A DNA stretch of 64,000 nt. Source: Lachnospiraceae bacterium. GTDB taxonomy: Bacteria; Bacillota; Clostridia; Lachnospirales; Lachnospiraceae. The position numbers were made by a program, and so were the translations under genes. Positions 188-10,056 of this stretch are shown here, piece after piece. Below the pieces are notes generated by a model. That model saw only the letters and a program-made list of their open reading frames with translations, made no database searches and was not told the DNA's origin. The DNA lies in contig JAFLSW010000003.1 of NCBI GenBank assembly GCA_022510725.1, positions 1-64,000 on the forward strand. The letters are read 5' to 3'. The first letter of the stretch is position 1; each line of letters starts with the position of its first letter.

Positions 188-230
188 AAGCACCCTCCGT
201 TCTTATATATTTTATAACTTATATCACCGT

Positions 231-310
231 TTTGCAATCGTTTTTGATTGCATTTTTATTTTGCAATCGTTTTTGATTGCATTTTTATTTTGCAATCGTT
301 TTTGATTGCT
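231..310. repeat. Three tandem 29-bp repeats, each containing the inverted repeat TGCAATC-N6-GATTGCA (third copy ends GATTGCT)
   Basis: GCAATCG at 234, 263 and 292 (period 29 bp) in unit TTTGCAATCGTTTTTGATTGCATTTTTAT. Confidence 0.9.
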
Positions 311-417: not shown

Positions 418-1845
418 CTAGACATTCAATTTGGACAATAAACATACCGTCTCCACATGCACCGTCTGCGGAAACTGATCCACCGCCCTTACCTTCTTCA
501 GCTGATACCCGTTTCCACACAAATATTTCAGATCCCTTGCCAGGGTTGCCGGATCGCAGCTGATATAGACAATTTTTTCCGGCTGCATCCTGACCATGGT
601 TTTAAGGCAGGCTTCATCGCAGCCCTTCCTTGGCGGATCCACTACGATCACATCAGCCCTGATCTGTTCCTTTTCATATTTCTCAGGCAGCACCTCCTCT
701 GCCTTTCCTACAAAAAACTCTGCATTGGAAATACCATTTATCTTTGCATTTTCCCTGGCGTTATCGATGGCCTGTGGAATGACCTCTACACCATATACCT
801 TTCCTGCTTTTTTAGCAAGGAACAAGGATACGGTTCCAATTCCGCAGTAAAGATCCCATACCGTTTCGTCGCCTTTTAGGTTAGCATAATCTAACGCAAG
901 CTGATACAATTCCTTGGTCTGCACCGGATTCACTTGATAGAAAGACAGGGGAGAAATTTGAAAAGCCACATCCCCGATCCTGTCAGTGATATATCCTTTT
1001 CCATACAACACTTCATAGCTTTCTCCCATGATCACATTGGTGTTTTTGGTATTGGAACTGATACAGATGCTTTCGATCTTCCAGTCTCCCAGAGAAAGGG
1101 AAAGCAATCTGTCCGTAAACTCCTTTTCTTTGGGAAAGCTCTTTCCGTTTATCACAAGGCATACCATTACTTCCTTGGAAGTAAAACCGCAGCGGATCAG
1201 CACATGACGCACCAAGCCTTTTTGCAGCGTTTCATCATAGGCGGGAATGTGATTTTCTTCCATGAAATCCAGAACCGCTTCTAAGATTTCTTTGTTGACA
1301 GCCGTTCCTAACTTACAGTCCGTATTGGCAATGATGGAATGGGTTCTGCCGGCATAAAAGCCTGCCACCGGCTTTCCTTCTTTATCGGTTCCGATAGGGT
1401 ATTGAGCCTTATTCCGATAGGCAAAGGGCTCTTCCATTCCCAGAATGGGCTCCATGACTGCTTCTATTTCTTGTGCCGAAAATCCACCGATGCGCACCAG
1501 ATCATGGAATACTTTTCGCTCTTTAAACCAAAGCTGCTTTTCATAGCTGACTGCCTGGAGCTGACAGCCGCCGCATACTCTGGCATACTGACACAAAGGC
1601 TCTATACGAAAAGGAGAAGGTGTCAACACCTTCTCTAGTCTGGCATAGGCATAGCTTTTCTTTGCCTTCATGATCTTGGCTTCTACCACATCACCCATGA
1701 CCCCGTCCTTAATAAACAGAGTATAGCCATCCACTTTTCCGATGCCTTCTCCCTCTGTGCCCACATCCTCAATGGTTACGGTGACCAGGTCATTTTTCTG
1801 ATAGGTATGCAGTTGTTTTTCCGGTTTGTTCTTCTTTTTCTCCAT
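418..1845 (-). CDS. rlmD: 23S rRNA (uracil-C5)-methyltransferase, RlmD/TrmA family
   Basis: TRAM-like N-terminus, CQYARVCGGCQLQ Cys motif, DLYCGIGTVSLFLA SAM motif, VVDPPRKGC and YISCDPATLARD. Start MEKKKNK at 1845 has SD GGAGGCGG. Confidence 0.92.
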   Translation of the reverse strand: MEKKKNKPEKQLHTYQKNDLVTVTIEDVGTEGEGIGKVDGYTLFIKDGVMGDVVEAKIMKAKKSYAYARLEKVLTPSPFRIEPLCQYARVCGGCQLQAVSYEKQLWFKERKVFHDLVRIGGFSAQEIEAVMEPILGMEEPFAYRNKAQYPIGTDKEGKPVAGFYAGRTHSIIANTDCKLGTAVNKEILEAVLDFMEENHIPAYDETLQKGLVRHVLIRCGFTSKEVMVCLVINGKSFPKEKEFTDRLLSLSLGDWKIESICISSNTKNTNVIMGESYEVLYGKGYITDRIGDVAFQISPLSFYQVNPVQTKELYQLALDYANLKGDETVWDLYCGIGTVSLFLAKKAGKVYGVEVIPQAIDNARENAKINGISNAEFFVGKAEEVLPEKYEKEQIRADVIVVDPPRKGCDEACLKTMVRMQPEKIVYISCDPATLARDLKYLCGNGYQLKKVRAVDQFPQTVHVETVCLLSKLNV

Positions 1846-1896
1846 GCTTTCCGCCTCCAATACGAAAGCTCTCATGACAACTTCCGCCTCAGAGTT

Positions 1897-2841
1897 TTAT
1901 TTCATCTTGGTTGCCCGCACATTGCTTTCCAACATTCTGTTGTAGCCCAGCCAGCCGATCTGATCTGTTGTTTCCAAAAGCTCTGTAAAAGTCTCCATCT
2001 TGGCATCGGTATTATCCGCAAAGTTGAGGGCCAAAGCTTCTATCAAAGCCGGCTTCTTGGGGGAACCGAATTCCAGCTCGCCATGGTGGGATAAGATACA
2101 ATGCTTTAATTCCCCTAAAAGGGTCGGGGGAAATCCGGGAATCTGTTTTGCCACATCCGAGATCATTTCACTTCCCATAACAATATGACCCAATAAGTTT
2201 CCTTCGTCAGTATAGTCATTTTCCGGGAAAAGAGAGAGCTCTTTGGTCTTTCCGATGTCATGGCAGATTGCCGCTGTCAAGAGCAGATCTCTTTTTAAGA
2301 TGGGATACTGGGTGCAATAATAGTCACAAAGCTTTGCCACGCTTAAGGTGTGTTCCATGAGCCCGCCCACAAAACCGTGATGAACGGATTTTGCAGCAGA
2401 GGAAGTACCGAATGCCTGTACAAAGTCCTTATCTTCTATAAACATCTTTTCCAAAAGCTGACGACAATAGTTATCCTCTATGGATGCGACCAATTCTTTC
2501 AGCTGCCCGTACATTTCATTGCGGTCCTTTTTGGAGGTGGGAAGATATTCGCTTGGGTCGTATTCTCCTTCGCTGCAGCGGCGGATTCTTTTTACATTGA
2601 CCTGCAAAGCCCCCTGAAAAGAAACAATGTCTCCGTTTACTTCAATAAAGTCCAGGGCATCAAAGTCATCAATTCCCGCACTGCCCGGGTCCCAGATCTT
2701 GGCATCCATATTTCCTGTCTTATCCTGTAAGATCGCAGTATCATAGGGTTTCCCGTTTTTGGTCACTGCCGACTGTTTAAATTTACACAGATAGATTTCG
2801 CTTACTCTGTCTCCCTCATGATATTCTTTTAAATATTTCAT
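1897..2841 (-). CDS. 3'-5' exoribonuclease YhaM-like, OB fold + HD domain
   Basis: OB-fold N-terminus (LQDKTGNMDAKIWD) and HD motifs MEHTLSVAK, AAICHDIGKTKEL, HCILSHHGELEFGSP. Confidence 0.9.
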   Translation of the reverse strand: MKYLKEYHEGDRVSEIYLCKFKQSAVTKNGKPYDTAILQDKTGNMDAKIWDPGSAGIDDFDALDFIEVNGDIVSFQGALQVNVKRIRRCSEGEYDPSEYLPTSKKDRNEMYGQLKELVASIEDNYCRQLLEKMFIEDKDFVQAFGTSSAAKSVHHGFVGGLMEHTLSVAKLCDYYCTQYPILKRDLLLTAAICHDIGKTKELSLFPENDYTDEGNLLGHIVMGSEMISDVAKQIPGFPPTLLGELKHCILSHHGELEFGSPKKPALIEALALNFADNTDAKMETFTELLETTDQIGWLGYNRMLESNVRATKMK

Positions 2842-4217
2842 TGTCTTAATTCCTCCGGTTTGATCTCGCCTTCTATGGTCACATATTTTTCTCCGTCAAA
2901 GCGTTTTAGTTCAATTACCACCGTTAATTCTGCCCGCATGGATTGCAATGCTTCTTCATAATCCCTGCTGCTTTTTATCTCCTTATTTCCCAGCCTTGTG
3001 ATCACATCTCCGTTTAGCACACCGCTGGTCATGGCAGGAGAACCGGAATCCACCTCCATAGCATAGATTCCGTAAGGGATTCCCATATCCTCATGGACTT
3101 CCTCTGTCACATCCACCCCATGGATACCCAGATACAGCCTTCTGTCTCCGTTGGATAACTGCTCCAACAAAGTACGGATATCCGAAATGCCAAAGCAGGC
3201 AAGAAGTGCGCCTCGGGCATTGACGCTGGATTCTTTGGTAATGATCCCCAGGATCTGTCCGGAGGTATTGATAATGATTCCGCTGGCATTGGTTGCGCTG
3301 CCTGTTATATCCGTAGTCAAAACAGAATACCGATGGTCTGCATAGACCACTTCCGACTGATTAGAGGTAATGATTCCATAGCAGACAGAACCGCTTTGTC
3401 CCAGAGGACTTCCCAATGCTACTACCGGTCTTCCTACAATGGCAGAGGAATTAGAATTGCCCAATTTTGCTACCCCTACGCCTTCCCATTCTTCATCTGT
3501 CATAGCTGTTTTGGGAACGGTAAACACAGCCAGTCTCGTATAGGGATCTTCCCGCTTCAAATGAGCTTCCTGCCTGCTGCCATTTCCAAATGTCACATTA
3601 TAGGTTTCCGCATCCGGAAGGCCGTTTAAATCTGCCAGAATATATATCTGATCCTCACTTTTTGCCACTACTGCGCCGGAAGTCTCATTGATATTTTCTA
3701 CCCGGTTTTGGAACCAGTCGGTATCCTGGGAAACGCCTGTAAGGGTTACCACATAACCGGAAGCGTCTGCTGCAATTTGATACAACTCATCATAAATGTT
3801 CTGATAAGTCTGCATGGCGAATTGCCCACTGCTAACTTGTGCTGTAATCTGATCCAGCACCTGTTGGTTAAACTGCTGATTAGACTGCATCTGCTCTTCC
3901 TGCTTGATGTCCTGTTCCACATGTTCATCAGTCAACAGCTCTTCCGGCGTGATCTCATCCTCTTCCTCAGGAAACTCCACTCTGGTGATCTCTTCCGGAT
4001 AAAGCCAGTTGCTGATAACCGGCTCTAACAAAAGGAAGGTAATACAGGCAACTATACCAAAAATAGCCGCTCCACATACAGTGATAACCGTCTTTTTAAA
4101 AAGCTTTCTTTTATTGATGGGACGCTCTTTGATCTTTTCACTGATAAAGGAATAAGAACCTTCTTCTTTCTGCTCTTTTTCTTCCCCATCCTGTTCTATG
4201 ATTTCATTTTCGTTCAT
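2838..4217 (-). CDS. HtrA/S1C-like PDZ protein, apparently lacking the catalytic triad (pseudoprotease candidate)
   Basis: N-terminal TM segment, chymotrypsin-fold landmarks (YILADLNGL, DPYTRLAVF, VVALGSPLG, TDITGSATNASGIIINTSGQILGI) and C-terminal PDZ (GSPAMTSGVLNGDVITRLGN). Confidence 0.85.
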   Translation of the reverse strand: MNENEIIEQDGEEKEQKEEGSYSFISEKIKERPINKRKLFKKTVITVCGAAIFGIVACITFLLLEPVISNWLYPEEITRVEFPEEEDEITPEELLTDEHVEQDIKQEEQMQSNQQFNQQVLDQITAQVSSGQFAMQTYQNIYDELYQIAADASGYVVTLTGVSQDTDWFQNRVENINETSGAVVAKSEDQIYILADLNGLPDAETYNVTFGNGSRQEAHLKREDPYTRLAVFTVPKTAMTDEEWEGVGVAKLGNSNSSAIVGRPVVALGSPLGQSGSVCYGIITSNQSEVVYADHRYSVLTTDITGSATNASGIIINTSGQILGIITKESSVNARGALLACFGISDIRTLLEQLSNGDRRLYLGIHGVDVTEEVHEDMGIPYGIYAMEVDSGSPAMTSGVLNGDVITRLGNKEIKSSRDYEEALQSMRAELTVVIELKRFDGEKYVTIEGEIKPEELRQ

Positions 4218-4256: not shown

Positions 4257-4916
4257 TCAGTATATCGGACGGGGCATTTCTTGTAAAGACAAACCTTTTA
4301 CTTGCCCTTTTTCTACAAAAAATACTTCATCACACAGAATATCAATATCTTCTCGATTATGACTCGCAAGAATAACCAGTCTCCCCTCTGCTTTCATTTT
4401 TAGCAAAAGCATCCTGACAGTAGCTATCCCCTCCTTATCTAACCCATTCATCGGTTCGTCCAAAATCAATATTGATTGGTCCTCCATGATCGCTTGAGCG
4501 ATACCCAACCTCTGTCGCATTCCCAGACTATATTTTTTAACCGGCAATTTAAGATCCGGATCCAGTCCACATTCTTTCATTGTTTCTTTAATTTTAGTTA
4601 CATTTGTTTTTCCACTTATTTCTGCCAAAATTTTAAGATTCTTTAATCCCGAATAATACATAATAAAACCCGGCGTTTCAATAATGATACCTGTATTCTT
4701 TATATAATCGATATCCTTGCCAATAACCTCATTATCAACGACGATCTTACCGGATGTGGTTTTTACAAACCCACAGATGCACTTCATTAACATCGTTTTT
4801 CCACTGCCGTTATTTCCGACCAGACCATAAATATTTCCTTCCTGCAAAGTCATATTGACATTGGATAAGATTTGATGTCCCTTTATATTTAAATTCAGAT
4901 CACTTATTTTTATCAC
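4257..4916 (-). CDS. ABC transporter ATP-binding protein
   Basis: Walker A GNNGSGKT, signature YSLGMRQRLG, Walker B LILDEP. Confidence 0.93.
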   Translation of the reverse strand: MIKISDLNLNIKGHQILSNVNMTLQEGNIYGLVGNNGSGKTMLMKCICGFVKTTSGKIVVDNEVIGKDIDYIKNTGIIIETPGFIMYYSGLKNLKILAEISGKTNVTKIKETMKECGLDPDLKLPVKKYSLGMRQRLGIAQAIMEDQSILILDEPMNGLDKEGIATVRMLLLKMKAEGRLVILASHNREDIDILCDEVFFVEKGQVKGLSLQEMPRPIY

Positions 4917-4929
4917 ATTTACCCTCCTT

Positions 4930-5787
4930 TTATATACTATGATACCTTTTACTCATGACAATAGATAGAACTACCAATATAGTGTTAATTACAATGAAAT
5001 AAATATAAGAATAGGATAGCGGCATGATCTGTTCACTTTGATATTTTTCATAATGCAGCCATGTAATGGTATGTGCCATAGGAAGGAACCACATATATGA
5101 TGTTCTGGAAGCACAGGCTATACCTCCCATAACAATAAGAAATGCATCCAGCAAGATCCCTATTATTTTCTTTTTCAATAGGGAAAAAACAAGAATAATC
5201 AGCGCAAGCATAATAAAGTATAATATAAGCAATATTGCTGTATGAAGCATAGATGTCTTTAACAAAACCTGATTATACAAATTTTCAGGAATCAGTTGTA
5301 CTACATATTCTCCTGCTCTTTCCGGATAAACTGCTGCATATTTTGTTACAGCATAACTGTAATATGGGCTTTTATCTATAAAATTCAATGCCAATAAAAC
5401 TGATGCAGTAAAAACAAATAATGTTAGGGCAATGGAACTTTCTATTGCATAAACAACTTGACCCACAATCCATGTTCTTTTACTGCATCGTATCTGGTAA
5501 AAATATTGACTGCCTCCTTCTCTTGGATAATCCGCCATCATCGTAATAAAAAAAAGCGGCAATATTAATACAATAATTCCTGAATTACCCACTGCTATAA
5601 ATGGCTCAAATACAGAAATTTTGCTTTCCATCAGAACGCTTAGCTCTCTAAGAGGAGTAATGATTTGAATATTTATAAAAATGACAAAGAGAGTAAGTAT
5701 AATGATTTTTGTACTTCTAACTAGTTGCAGCATTTCAATTCGGGAAAGGTTCCGTATAATTTTTATTTTATTCAAACCCAACTTCAC
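4930..5787 (-). CDS. ABC-2-like membrane permease
   Basis: Multiple hydrophobic segments; overlaps the upstream permease and is adjacent to the ATPase. Confidence 0.75.
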   Translation of the reverse strand: MKLGLNKIKIIRNLSRIEMLQLVRSTKIIILTLFVIFINIQIITPLRELSVLMESKISVFEPFIAVGNSGIIVLILPLFFITMMADYPREGGSQYFYQIRCSKRTWIVGQVVYAIESSIALTLFVFTASVLLALNFIDKSPYYSYAVTKYAAVYPERAGEYVVQLIPENLYNQVLLKTSMLHTAILLILYFIMLALIILVFSLLKKKIIGILLDAFLIVMGGIACASRTSYMWFLPMAHTITWLHYEKYQSEQIMPLSYSYIYFIVINTILVVLSIVMSKRYHSI

Positions 5788-6625
5788 TCCCTTTCTTCTT
5801 TAACAAATATAGATTTAAGCAAAAACCACCCATGTATATGACAAACACAAGCAGCAATGTCATCCACCAAAAGACAGATTGATTCATACTTAAAATATTT
5901 TCAATTCTTAAACCGGAACATAAATTCAGTAATGCATCTTGCCCTGTATTTATTGCATTCATTTCTATTTTTAAAATCGTCTGTCCCCAAATATATTTCA
6001 TCATGATAGGTAAGCAAAGCAAAATATATTTATCCACAAATATTATTGATACGAAATATGCAAAAATATTGATACACATTCCATATAAGAAAATACCTAT
6101 GCACCGTTTCAAGCCCCCAAAAAATTCTTGAAAACCATAAAAGGATTCCATATACATGTTTAAATAATCAACCGGATATTCCTGTATGGATGGAAATTTA
6201 ATAAATATGATTGCTCCAAAAATTGCATATCCTACAAACATAATAATGCCACCGCTTAGCATGGCTGAAATTGTTTTTGAAATACAATATCCAAGATTGT
6301 TTTCTCTGACTAATATCAGTCTGTGCATTCCTGTTAATTTTTCATTTGAAATGTCATAAAGATATCCTATACTCAACAAAAACGGAAGAAGCAGTTGTGT
6401 CCATGTCCCTATCCCTTTCATCCATATTTCATATCGGTTTAAAGAAACATCTGTCAACATTGTATCTTTACTTAAAAATAGCAGCAGTTCCATGATCGTA
6501 TAACTTTTTCCACCAAGAGAAGTATAGCCCTCACTTAACAGGCAGACTAAAACCACTCCAAAGCAGGATAATATGAAAAAAGGCAGATACAAACTTTTTT
6601 TAATTTCAGTTACTATATTCTGCAT
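5768..6625 (-). CDS. ABC-2-like membrane permease
   Basis: Multi-TM. The start MQNIVTEIKK at 6625 immediately follows the preceding stop (6627), suggesting coupling. Confidence 0.75.
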   Translation of the reverse strand: MQNIVTEIKKSLYLPFFILSCFGVVLVCLLSEGYTSLGGKSYTIMELLLFLSKDTMLTDVSLNRYEIWMKGIGTWTQLLLPFLLSIGYLYDISNEKLTGMHRLILVRENNLGYCISKTISAMLSGGIIMFVGYAIFGAIIFIKFPSIQEYPVDYLNMYMESFYGFQEFFGGLKRCIGIFLYGMCINIFAYFVSIIFVDKYILLCLPIMMKYIWGQTILKIEMNAINTGQDALLNLCSGLRIENILSMNQSVFWWMTLLLVFVIYMGGFCLNLYLLKKKGSEVGFE

Positions 6626-6626
6626 A

Positions 6627-7898
6627 CTATTCCTCCACATAGGAGTAGTAATAGATCTCTCCTGTAAGCACATTGATATAGAATCTCATTAATTGATTAT
6701 TTGTTTGGTTAACACCCTGAAATTGCCAACAAGGATATACGACTTTATTTTCTGATTTATCAACATGGGGACAATAGACCAACCCTACTTTGCTTACTTT
6801 TAATGTTACATTGGCTGCTAAAAAGTCATCTAATATCATAATCGCATCCTTTAGACTAATGATATCTGTCTGTTCTTCCATAAGAGGTTCTAGCTGCTCT
6901 GCATCCGAATATCCTGTAAATGCAGATACCCGGTCATGATTTATAACATATGCCCTTTTCATATCTTCCATAAGTTCATAGTCAGAACCATAGTAAGTCC
7001 TAATACCGGTTGCGGCATATGCAAAGGGTATTCCTCTATAAACTCTGCGGACTTTAAAGGCATAACCATACTTATCCCCCAGCATAAACACTTCTACTTC
7101 CGGTGCATCAATGGATATATTATCTGGATTTTCTTTTGGCGTTCCTGCTTCAAAATAGTTTTTTACGATTTCTGCAGCATCTGCAATGGACATTTCTCCA
7201 TCCGCCAAATCCCATACATTATCACCCAACTGTGAAACCATTCCTTTACCCACGACATTTTCCTGATTGGTTCCCAAAGCATCCATTGCGGCAAAACCAT
7301 CCAGATCCAGAAAAGCTGTTATCGAACCGTCGCTCATGGAGTATATTCCACCATTCCCCATTTGGATATAACACCTATTGGTGTTAAGAAAAAATCCTCT
7401 TCCTGAATCAAAATCAGGATAATGGTCAAATACCGCCGGATAATCATAGGGATATTCTTCATTGCTTCCCTCGTATTGCCCAGTAGCGTCTCGTAGTTCT
7501 TTCTCTAAATCTATATCATCACAGTTAATATTTCTAAGCCAGCCTTTTATGAATTCTATGGTCTCATCTACTCCCATATTTTCTGAATATAGTCTGTAGA
7601 TTCCTACTGTATCAATTCCTTTAATTGGCATGATCTCACAATCTTGAAAAATAATATTCTGAAATTTACTCTCTTTTATTTCAATGATTTCATTCTCGTA
7701 CCGATTTTGGTATTCTGTAATATTGATGCGATTTTCAGAAAACTGAAAATCATATTGAATTAGCTCATTATCCCCTGTTGTGTCCGATGTAATAGTCGTA
7801 TTTTCTAATCCGGTAATATCCTTTTCAATTTGAGAATTGCATCCTACAAGATACACAATGCATATTGCCATTATGAAACATAATTTAACTTTTTTCAT
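6627..7898 (-). CDS. Lipoprotein of unknown function, partner of ABC module
   Basis: Start MKKVKLCFIMAICIVYLVGC with lipobox LVGC; SD GGAGGATTGG directly upstream. The upstream extension in the ORF track is not supported. Confidence 0.8.
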   Translation of the reverse strand: MKKVKLCFIMAICIVYLVGCNSQIEKDITGLENTTITSDTTGDNELIQYDFQFSENRINITEYQNRYENEIIEIKESKFQNIIFQDCEIMPIKGIDTVGIYRLYSENMGVDETIEFIKGWLRNINCDDIDLEKELRDATGQYEGSNEEYPYDYPAVFDHYPDFDSGRGFFLNTNRCYIQMGNGGIYSMSDGSITAFLDLDGFAAMDALGTNQENVVGKGMVSQLGDNVWDLADGEMSIADAAEIVKNYFEAGTPKENPDNISIDAPEVEVFMLGDKYGYAFKVRRVYRGIPFAYAATGIRTYYGSDYELMEDMKRAYVINHDRVSAFTGYSDAEQLEPLMEEQTDIISLKDAIMILDDFLAANVTLKVSKVGLVYCPHVDKSENKVVYPCWQFQGVNQTNNQLMRFYINVLTGEIYYYSYVEE

Positions 7899-7920
7899 AC
7901 CAATCCTCCATAATAAAACG

Positions 7921-7950
7921 GCAGAGGATAAAATATTCTTTATCCTCTGC
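7921..7950 (-). promoter_or_regulatory. Perfect 12-bp inverted repeat (hairpin) in predicted 5' UTR of lipoprotein-ABC operon
   Basis: GCAGAGGATAAA-ATATTC-TTTATCCTCTGC. Confidence 0.85.
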
Positions 7951-7959
7951 TTTTGTCGC

Positions 7960-8025
7960 ATTATAGCTGATTATGTTTTTATTTACTATATGTTTAACAC
8001 CAACGACTTCTGTGCAACATAAACG
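7960..8025 (-). promoter_or_regulatory. Putative LytTR-activated promoter: -10 TATAAT (7960-7965) with weak -35 and two imperfect direct repeats (7996-8005, 8016-8025)
   Basis: On minus strand CGTTTATGTT and CGTTGGTGTT, 20 bp apart, centred upstream of a promoter with no recognisable -35. Confidence 0.45.
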
Positions 8026-8032
8026 GCACAGG

Positions 8033-9352
8033 TTATTTAGGTTCTTGGTCTTGTGCTTCAATATGAAGCCATATTTCCGCTATAAATATATTCCCTTCTT
8101 CACAAAACTTCACTGTACCATCGTATTTGCTACATATTTCATGAATTGATGCAATTCCATATCCATGCATAGACTTTTCCGACTTTGTAGTAACCAGATC
8201 CGGATTACTCGATAACACAGAATTTCTGATGCTATTTTTAACAATAATTTGTATATAGGATTTTTTTCTGCTTATTTCTAAATCTATCATAGGCTTATCA
8301 GAATCCTTACATCCACTCATAGCATTGTCCAGCAAGTTAGAAAGTAATATGCTCATGTCCATTTCATTTACTTCATGAAATTCCGTATTCAAAACAGCTT
8401 TTACCGTAATTCCTTTTTCCTTGCAGATTGAGAACTTATCATTTATTACTGAGTCTACAGCGATCATTCCCGTCTGAATACCGATAGATACAGAAGACAG
8501 CTTTTGCTGTAATAGTGTTTCCAGATAATTCTTTGCTTCATCCGGATTCCCATTTGAAATAAGACCTGTTGTTGTCATTAAATAATGTTTCATATCATGA
8601 TAAAGAATTTTTGTTTCCTTATAATGTTTTTGTGCATTCAACACGAATTGTTTCTGGAGCTTAAGATTCATTTGGGCCAAATTGTATTTTTCCCGCAAGT
8701 GACTGCTGTTTTCCATCTGATTCAAAAGAACAAACAGCAATATATTTAACATCGCTATGGAAAGGAAAACCAGCAAAACCCTATAATCGTCAACAGAAGC
8801 CTGCTTTGATATACTCCAGATCATATTAGCAATGTAAAAAGAAATAACAAAACATAGAACCTGAATCGGCCATTGGAAACTCTTAAGGGAAGCGGTCTCT
8901 TTTTTCTTCAATCTGATTAATATTTCGCATACTATAAAAAATGCAAACTTACTAAAAAACAACACTAGTATCCTTAATTCCTCACCGGAACTTCGAAGCA
9001 TGTCCACACTTTCATGTGTAATAAAAGAAATCGAATACAAAACAATTCCATTGATAGGGAATAAAGTAAGTGTCGGTATCAATATTTCCAATATTTTCTC
9101 ATAAGCCCTTCCCTTTTGGCATATAAGAGAATAGATGGAGAGCAGAATTAGCATAATAAGAATTGAGATGTTTTCTGTTCCTTTTTTCTGACTTAAAATA
9201 ATATTATCCGTTGCTAACAAAACAAATAATATGCTTGTTACATAGATTTTATAGTTTTTATATCGAAATGGTAACCATTGATTTAAAAATCGTACAATAA
9301 TGAAACATTCTACCAAAGAGGCCAGCCACTCTATATAATTCACTGTCATCAT
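8033..9352 (-). CDS. GHKL (AgrC-type) sensor histidine kinase
   Basis: About 6 TM segments, YHDMKHYLMTTTGLIS H-box, LLSNLLDNAM N-box, HGYGIASI G-box. Confidence 0.9.
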   Translation of the reverse strand: MMTVNYIEWLASLVECFIIVRFLNQWLPFRYKNYKIYVTSILFVLLATDNIILSQKKGTENISILIMLILLSIYSLICQKGRAYEKILEILIPTLTLFPINGIVLYSISFITHESVDMLRSSGEELRILVLFFSKFAFFIVCEILIRLKKKETASLKSFQWPIQVLCFVISFYIANMIWSISKQASVDDYRVLLVFLSIAMLNILLFVLLNQMENSSHLREKYNLAQMNLKLQKQFVLNAQKHYKETKILYHDMKHYLMTTTGLISNGNPDEAKNYLETLLQQKLSSVSIGIQTGMIAVDSVINDKFSICKEKGITVKAVLNTEFHEVNEMDMSILLSNLLDNAMSGCKDSDKPMIDLEISRKKSYIQIIVKNSIRNSVLSSNPDLVTTKSEKSMHGYGIASIHEICSKYDGTVKFCEEGNIFIAEIWLHIEAQDQEPK

Positions 9353-10056
9353 ATGCTCCTCATTAATATTTCAAATTTCTCTCTTACCTCGTGAGCTCTT
9401 TTCCGACCAAGCAATAATTCTTCTCCATTATCCAAAACAACGATATTTTTCTGTATGGAGTAAATATACCATCCATTAGCCAAATAGCTTTTATGCGTCC
9501 TTACAAAACCATATTTTTCCCATTGTTTTTCATAGGCTGACAGACTTCCATAGCACTCAAAAACTTTGCCATCCTTTGTGTGGATCTTGATCCAATGTCC
9601 ATAAATTTCCGCAAATGTAATATTCTTTACGCTTAATGTAATATTTCCCATGGATGTATGCAGACATACCAAGTGATTCTGAAACTGCACCTTGATATGT
9701 TCTTCTAATGCCTTAACCGCCTCTTCTAATTCAACATCCACATATTCCTTTCTAATAAATCGAAAGGGCTGAAACTGAATAGACGAATACACCAGTTCAT
9801 CATGAGCTGTAAGAAACAATATAGGCATTGGATGATTTTGTTTAATATAAACTGCTATCTCCATACCATTTATTTTAGGCATATCAATATCAAGGAATAC
9901 TGCATCAAAATAAGATAATTCCTTTAAAAACTTTTCCTCATCGTGGTAACTCTTGATGTCCCCTTCAATATTTAATTCTTTTAGCTTTTCCTCCAACTTA
10001 ACCTCAAATGTCTTTAAGAATATTGGCTCATCATCACAAACAGCAATGTGTAACAC
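9349..10056 (-). CDS. LytTR family response regulator
   Basis: Receiver domain (CDDEP, FLDIDMP, FLTAHDE) and LytTR domain (FVRTHKSYLAN...); GTG start with SD AGGAAAAGAGG. Confidence 0.92.
   Translation of the reverse strand: MLHIAVCDDEPIFLKTFEVKLEEKLKELNIEGDIKSYHDEEKFLKELSYFDAVFLDIDMPKINGMEIAVYIKQNHPMPILFLTAHDELVYSSIQFQPFRFIRKEYVDVELEEAVKALEEHIKVQFQNHLVCLHTSMGNITLSVKNITFAEIYGHWIKIHTKDGKVFECYGSLSAYEKQWEKYGFVRTHKSYLANGWYIYSIQKNIVVLDNGEELLLGRKRAHEVREKFEILMRSI

Follow-up and report, generated by a model that had tools for sequence, protein, structure and literature searches.

A predicted HtrA pseudoprotease lineage encoded upstream of yhaM across the family Lachnospiraceae

The closest described relatives of the protein analysed here are the HtrA, DegP and DegS peptidases (MEROPS family S1C; structures 5zvj, 3qo6 and 7co7), with which it shares the fold, the order of transmembrane (TM) segment, chymotrypsin-like domain and PDZ domain, a carboxylate-loop-like stretch and the fold glycines. 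Unlike these enzymes, it lacks the catalytic His, Asp and Ser, its oxyanion loop is altered, and its scores against the NCBIfam equivalog models lie far under the cut-offs. HtrA pseudoproteases already have a precedent in MamO of magnetotactic bacteria, which is likewise HtrA-like with a degenerate active site, is paired with active HtrAs and serves a non-catalytic role; it has lost catalysis, promotes proteolysis by MamE and binds metal (PMC4794232). However, MamO belongs to another phylum and another locus, whereas the present case is a single old loss spanning a family. MamO also kept a His and an Asp (H116 and D149, which were mutated in that study) and has Thr in place of Ser (PMC4794232), while all three residues are usually replaced here. 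A surface di-histidine metal site of the MamO type was not apparent, as no His is conserved in the family alignment. In the open-licence literature searched, bacterial HtrA pseudoproteases have been detailed only from magnetotactic bacteria. CspC and CspA of Clostridioides difficile have a subtilisin-like fold, unlike HtrA, and are soluble. The likeness lies in the reuse of dead Clostridia proteases for sensing, in their case in spore germination (PMC12880746). Finally, active HtrAs linked to yhaM in sister families share gene position, domain order and, in most cases, a juxtamembrane motif with this protein, but retain an intact His-Asp-Ser triad (HDS) and the GNSGG loop. An HtrA pseudoprotease that spans a whole family, goes back to a single origin, keeps its synteny and carries a conserved cytosolic motif is a new variant. 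No papers on this lineage were found in the open-licence literature.

The gene, hereafter pseudo-htrA, lies near the start of the window, i.e., the whole stretch of 64,000 nucleotides that was analysed (Table 1). Its product has a cytosolic tail that is short and charged, followed by one predicted TM helix and then by a variable linker leading to a Trypsin_2 domain and a single PDZ domain. An earlier note had proposed a membrane-anchored, HtrA-like PDZ protein at this place with all three triad residues replaced. The reading frame was present, both Pfam domains scored above their cut-offs, and hydropathy predicted a single TM helix. Moreover, alignments to HtrA/DegP sequences in the PDB, to the intact HtrAs of the same genome and to other HtrAs agreed on N198, R228 and A311 at the His, Asp and Ser positions, exactly at the codons that had been named.

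Table 1. Coordinates of pseudo-htrA, its parts and the two genes that follow it, in positions of the window
Feature	Position	Strand	Evidence
rlmD, 23S rRNA (uracil1939-C5)-methyltransferase	418..1875	(-)	TIGR00479, 457 bits (cut-off 184)
yhaM-like 3'-5' exoribonuclease (OB + HD)	1897..2841	(-)	NF010007, E 5e-62, below its cut-off; HD domain
ATGA, pseudo-htrA stop overlapping yhaM start	2838..2841	(-)	Sequence
pseudo-htrA	2838..4217	(-)	ATG ORF, 459 aa; Pfam, PDB-sequence match, AF2 model and Foldseek
PDZ domain (PDZ_2), residues 367-448	2874..3119	(-)	Pfam PF13180, 46.5 bits, E 4.5e-12, above cut-off
Trypsin_2 (chymotrypsin-like) match, residues 183-325	3243..3671	(-)	Pfam PF13365, 37.8 bits (cut-off 27.6), E 4e-9
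Ser nucleophile position = Ala311; Gly/Ala in most orthologues	3285..3287	(-)	Sequence alignments
Triad Asp position = Arg228; Gly in most orthologues	3534..3536	(-)	Sequence alignments
Triad His position = Asn198	3624..3626	(-)	Sequence alignments
Predicted TM helix, about residues 44-62	4032..4088	(-)	Hydropathy maximum, 19 residues, mean 2.54; Lys/Arg-rich cytosolic side
Cytosolic juxtamembrane motif FISEKIK, residues 24-30, consensus FxxExIK	4128..4148	(-)	About 20 residues before the TM helix

Membership in the HtrA/S1C family by descent was supported by the chymotrypsin-like domain followed by PDZ and by sequence similarity to HtrA/DegP in the PDB, both in a single-sequence search (E 8e-20) and with the orthologue profile, which gave a DegP-like match (E 6e-59). 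Both the His-Asp-Ser residues and the GNSGG loop of an active S1C peptidase are missing from the protein. A YLGI stretch resembling the carboxylate loop, with the invariant G364, was kept just before the PDZ domain. The expectation that default annotation would call this protein a serine protease held only in part: the Trypsin_2 match exceeds its cut-off, and annotation pipelines risk labelling such pseudoproteases as serine proteases, but the scores fell far below the cut-offs of the NCBIfam models for the Do family (TIGR02037, 98.3 vs. 416.2 bits) and the HtrA equivalog (NF047968, 99.4 vs. 470 bits).

Structure prediction agreed with this assignment. An AF2 model built from a 15-row alignment reached a mean pLDDT of 79.3 and a pTM of 0.63; an earlier run with a two-row alignment (pLDDT 47.5) was discarded. 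The best Foldseek matches in the PDB were all HtrA/Deg/AlgW proteins; among them were HtrA1 of M. tuberculosis (5zvj, E 6e-21), plant Deg1 (3qo6) and Pseudomonas AlgW (7co7; TM 0.71), and DegP. The modelled fold is thus that of HtrA, and together with the Pfam PDZ match and the conserved glycines it bore out the claim that the fold landmarks and PDZ domain persist. The model was used for the fold only, and the triad positions were placed from the sequence alignments.

Orthologues were searched in 299 genomes of the family Lachnospiraceae, to which the window belongs, and most gave a strong full-length match. Residues were then read in 116 proteins, about one per genus, comprising 115 relatives and the window's own; none had an intact triad. 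His was absent from its column throughout (0/116), Asp was retained in eight and Ser in 12 of the 116, and no protein kept two or more of the three. A relative from the same genus (G086), for instance, has N, G and S at these sites, with Ser present and His and Asp gone. The region around the former Asp mostly reads TGLAV, with Gly at the Asp position; the Ser loop now reads GS-xxxSG and is in most cases one residue short. The replacements are therefore fairly conserved in their own right. No conserved His column was found anywhere in the family alignment; consequently, no alternative Ser-His site was visible, and alternative catalytic residues were rejected. The occurrence of triad loss in 116 orthologues also rules out chance, or decay confined to this one genome.

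Despite this loss, the 115 relatives have full-length open frames at 25%–59% identity with seven invariant columns. Invariant or near-invariant residues of the fold and PDZ domain include G181, G269, D294, G364, G383, D404 and R439, conserved residues of the TM region include F53, G54, A57, F61 and P66, and near-invariant positions were distributed over the cytosolic motif, the TM helix and the protease-like and PDZ domains. The intact frames at such identities and the conserved columns show purifying selection across the family. With its catalytic residues gone, its fold conserved and the loss shared by orthologues, pseudo-htrA encodes, at the level of sequence, the pseudoprotease that had been predicted.

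Intact HtrAs served as controls. HDS was intact in all 28 outgroup HtrAs (from a class-wide search, nearly all outside the order), in 39 of the 40 unlinked HtrAs of the order and in all 17 HtrAs labelled as sharing the yhaM slot, although two of these (L240 and L241) were not seen close beside yhaM in the DNA available. Misalignment can therefore be ruled out, because HDS was recovered by the same alignments in every other HtrA read except one. The exception comes from a different family of the order, where one gene (L226, G410:C99) of two HtrA genes in tandem has S, N and D in place of H, D and S and a GNDGG loop. Some 20 further tandem pairs were checked and found intact, so this loss is a separate, isolated event. 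The genome containing the window has two active paralogues (L001 and L002), both HDS. The sequence of its fourth Trypsin_2 protein (L004, G000:C34:100593-104045; 296-aa frame), in which the nucleophile loop reads GGNSGSP and the His motif TAGHN, suggests an intact enzyme unrelated to the pseudo-htrA family.

Scores separated most of the degenerate group. Ordinary members scored 438–573 bits (14 members), and the best-scoring other proteins reached at most 350 bits elsewhere in the order and 250 bits beyond it. Five very divergent proteins encoded upstream of yhaM in weak-match genomes were also degenerate; such members scored 163–285 bits, overlapping active HtrAs. The group is therefore delimited by locus and residues in addition to score. 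A scan of genome contigs recovered one distant intact HtrA and nothing else, and tblastn against plasmids gave only distant matches, below 60% identity. Several viral contigs from IMG/VR (L249, L250, L255, L257, L259, L260 and L267) encode related intact HtrA/DegP-like proteins (QTDAAINPGNSGGPL).

Two maximum-likelihood trees placed all degenerate proteins in one clade (support 100/100), the age of which rules out a recent duplication within the genus. The best tree grouped this clade with the active paralogues of the same family (support 99/95), although the alternative grouping with slot-sharing intact HtrAs of two sister families was not rejected (AU p 0.143). Because the tree does not place the clade with the slot-sharing HtrAs, orthology to them rests on position and motif. 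In one of these trees, the HtrA of a record titled as an Oscillospiraceae MAG (L035) grouped closely (branches 0.24 and 0.15) with that of G022, a member of the window's family, which suggests a naming mismatch or a misbinned contig.

The position is well conserved. The next same-strand gene after the degenerate htrA was yhaM in 110 of 116 loci, often overlapping it, and rlmD was usually third in the cluster, after yhaM, and found near yhaM in most loci. In the window, the ATGA overlap makes translational coupling of pseudo-htrA and yhaM likely. Five sister families have an intact HtrA at or near the same place beside yhaM (yhaM-linked active HtrAs L186–L188, L191, L192, L196 and L199–L204). 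Among 19 family genomes that were read, all sampled from those with weak matches, 14 lacked the gene upstream of yhaM, indicating that pseudo-htrA is dispensable in some lineages. The outcome of one loss event has been retained in a constant neighbourhood through a family of ca. 300 sampled genera, and sister families have intact relatives in the corresponding slot. Dead and intact proteins in the same slot offer a clean before-and-after comparison for a protease scaffold without catalysis.

The cytosolic tail provided a second link to these active HtrAs. E27 and F24 of its motif were conserved in 98 of 100 and 89 of 99 orthologues, respectively, and the strict FxxExIK pattern occurred in 83 of 115 degenerate proteins against 1.1 expected from shuffled sequences. 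The pattern was also found in 14 of the 17 slot-sharing intact HtrAs (0.2 expected from shuffles) and in six of 21 other HtrAs of the order, including three from a family with the yhaM slot (f24). None of the 19 active paralogues of the window's family and none of the 27 outgroup HtrAs carried it. The motif is thus probably older than the triad loss and outlived it, judging from this distribution, and it points to a second, catalysis-independent function of HtrA. Together, the position beside yhaM and the common motif make it likely that the degenerate protein descends directly from a yhaM-linked active HtrA.

We consider it fairly probable that pseudo-htrA encodes a dead descendant of a yhaM-linked membrane HtrA that lost its triad once, at the base of the family, and has been kept as a client-binding pseudoprotease. 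In the ancestor of the order, an active membrane-anchored S1C protein would have been encoded upstream of yhaM; the window's family would then, at its base, have lost His, Asp and Ser a single time, followed by purifying selection as a pseudoprotease. The protein would be membrane-anchored, its N-terminus facing the cytosol. On the outer side, the former substrate groove and the PDZ domain may hold exported proteins by their unfolded or C-terminal segments and leave them uncut. In this role of holdase, sensor or adaptor, the protein would most plausibly hand clients over to the active HtrA paralogues, of which there are one or two, or tune these enzymes. The conserved FxxExIK tail probably contacts a cytosolic or membrane partner. 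That the gene lost its triad yet was retained beside the same two RNA-related genes across species makes it probable that it still functions, through binding and not through cleavage. Retention for binding or scaffolding is reasonable given that the PDZ domain and fold glycines were kept. A membrane-bound client binder or adaptor is favoured by the precedents of MamO and of S. pneumoniae HtrA, which engages unfolded polypeptides mainly through its PDZ domain and, as the S234A variant, forms hexamers holding casein (PMC12745498). A single TM helix and a single PDZ domain are also the layout of a DegS-type sensor, although cleavage of an anti-sigma factor as in DegS is not expected from a protein without a triad.

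A possible but less likely role is that of a regulatory subunit, which would assemble into mixed oligomers together with the active HtrA paralogues to activate or restrain them, as MamO does MamE. The two HDS paralogues in the same genome are compatible with such a role, almost every genome that encodes the degenerate protein gave one or more additional HtrA matches, and MamO provides a precedent together with the selection for active/inactive HtrA pairing noted there (PMC4794232). However, active paralogues were equally common in genomes lacking the degenerate gene, which makes the pairing uninformative, and other studied Gram-positive HtrAs are mostly monomeric in solution (PMC12745498).

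More doubtful is a dead-HtrA transmembrane adaptor, in which the ectodomain would read the folding of exported proteins and the FxxExIK tail would couple it to a cytosolic machine, possibly YhaM; as active slot-sharing HtrAs have the same tail, this output would predate the catalytic loss. The narrower proposal that the ectodomain senses misfolding in the envelope and the tail recruits or controls YhaM at the membrane, linking envelope folding to RNA decay, seems improbable, if not without attractions. RNase Y is membrane-anchored in Bacillota. The linkage to yhaM is tight, with frequent overlap, including the ATGA of the window, the motif is enriched in yhaM-linked HtrAs whether active or dead, and RNase Y generates the ends that YhaM then trims (PMC7101322). 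Nevertheless, three motif-bearing HtrAs (L228, L234 and L236) were not shown to be yhaM-linked, and in two of them yhaM sits elsewhere; L031 and L045 keep the motif without having yhaM as a direct neighbour; and yhaM persists without the htrA gene. A common operon, moreover, need not mean contact.

It is highly improbable that the protein is still a protease acting through other residues: the fold is kept and Ser occupies the nucleophile position in 12 of 116 proteins, including the same-genus relative, but the family has no conserved His column, the Asp position is mostly Gly, most members are one residue short in the oxyanion loop, and the window's protein has Ala at the Ser position. Equally remote is a decaying gene retained only through its operon position, since its fast evolution and its absence from some genomes are outweighed by intact full-length frames in 115 relatives and by conserved columns that reflect purifying selection.

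Two further features flank the conserved cluster in the window. Just upstream of it, positions 4257–10056 (-) encode an ABC transporter (4257–4916), two membrane-protein-like ORFs, a 444-aa ORF without a clear Pfam match (6627–7961, -) and a GHKL kinase/LytTR regulator pair (8033–10056, -), which together look like a peptide-signalling cassette. Downstream of rlmD, positions 230–310 (+) contain three near-identical hairpins (TGCAATCGTTTTTGATTGCA) at a spacing of ca. 29 bp, with a T-rich stretch after each, resembling a tandem terminator-like array.
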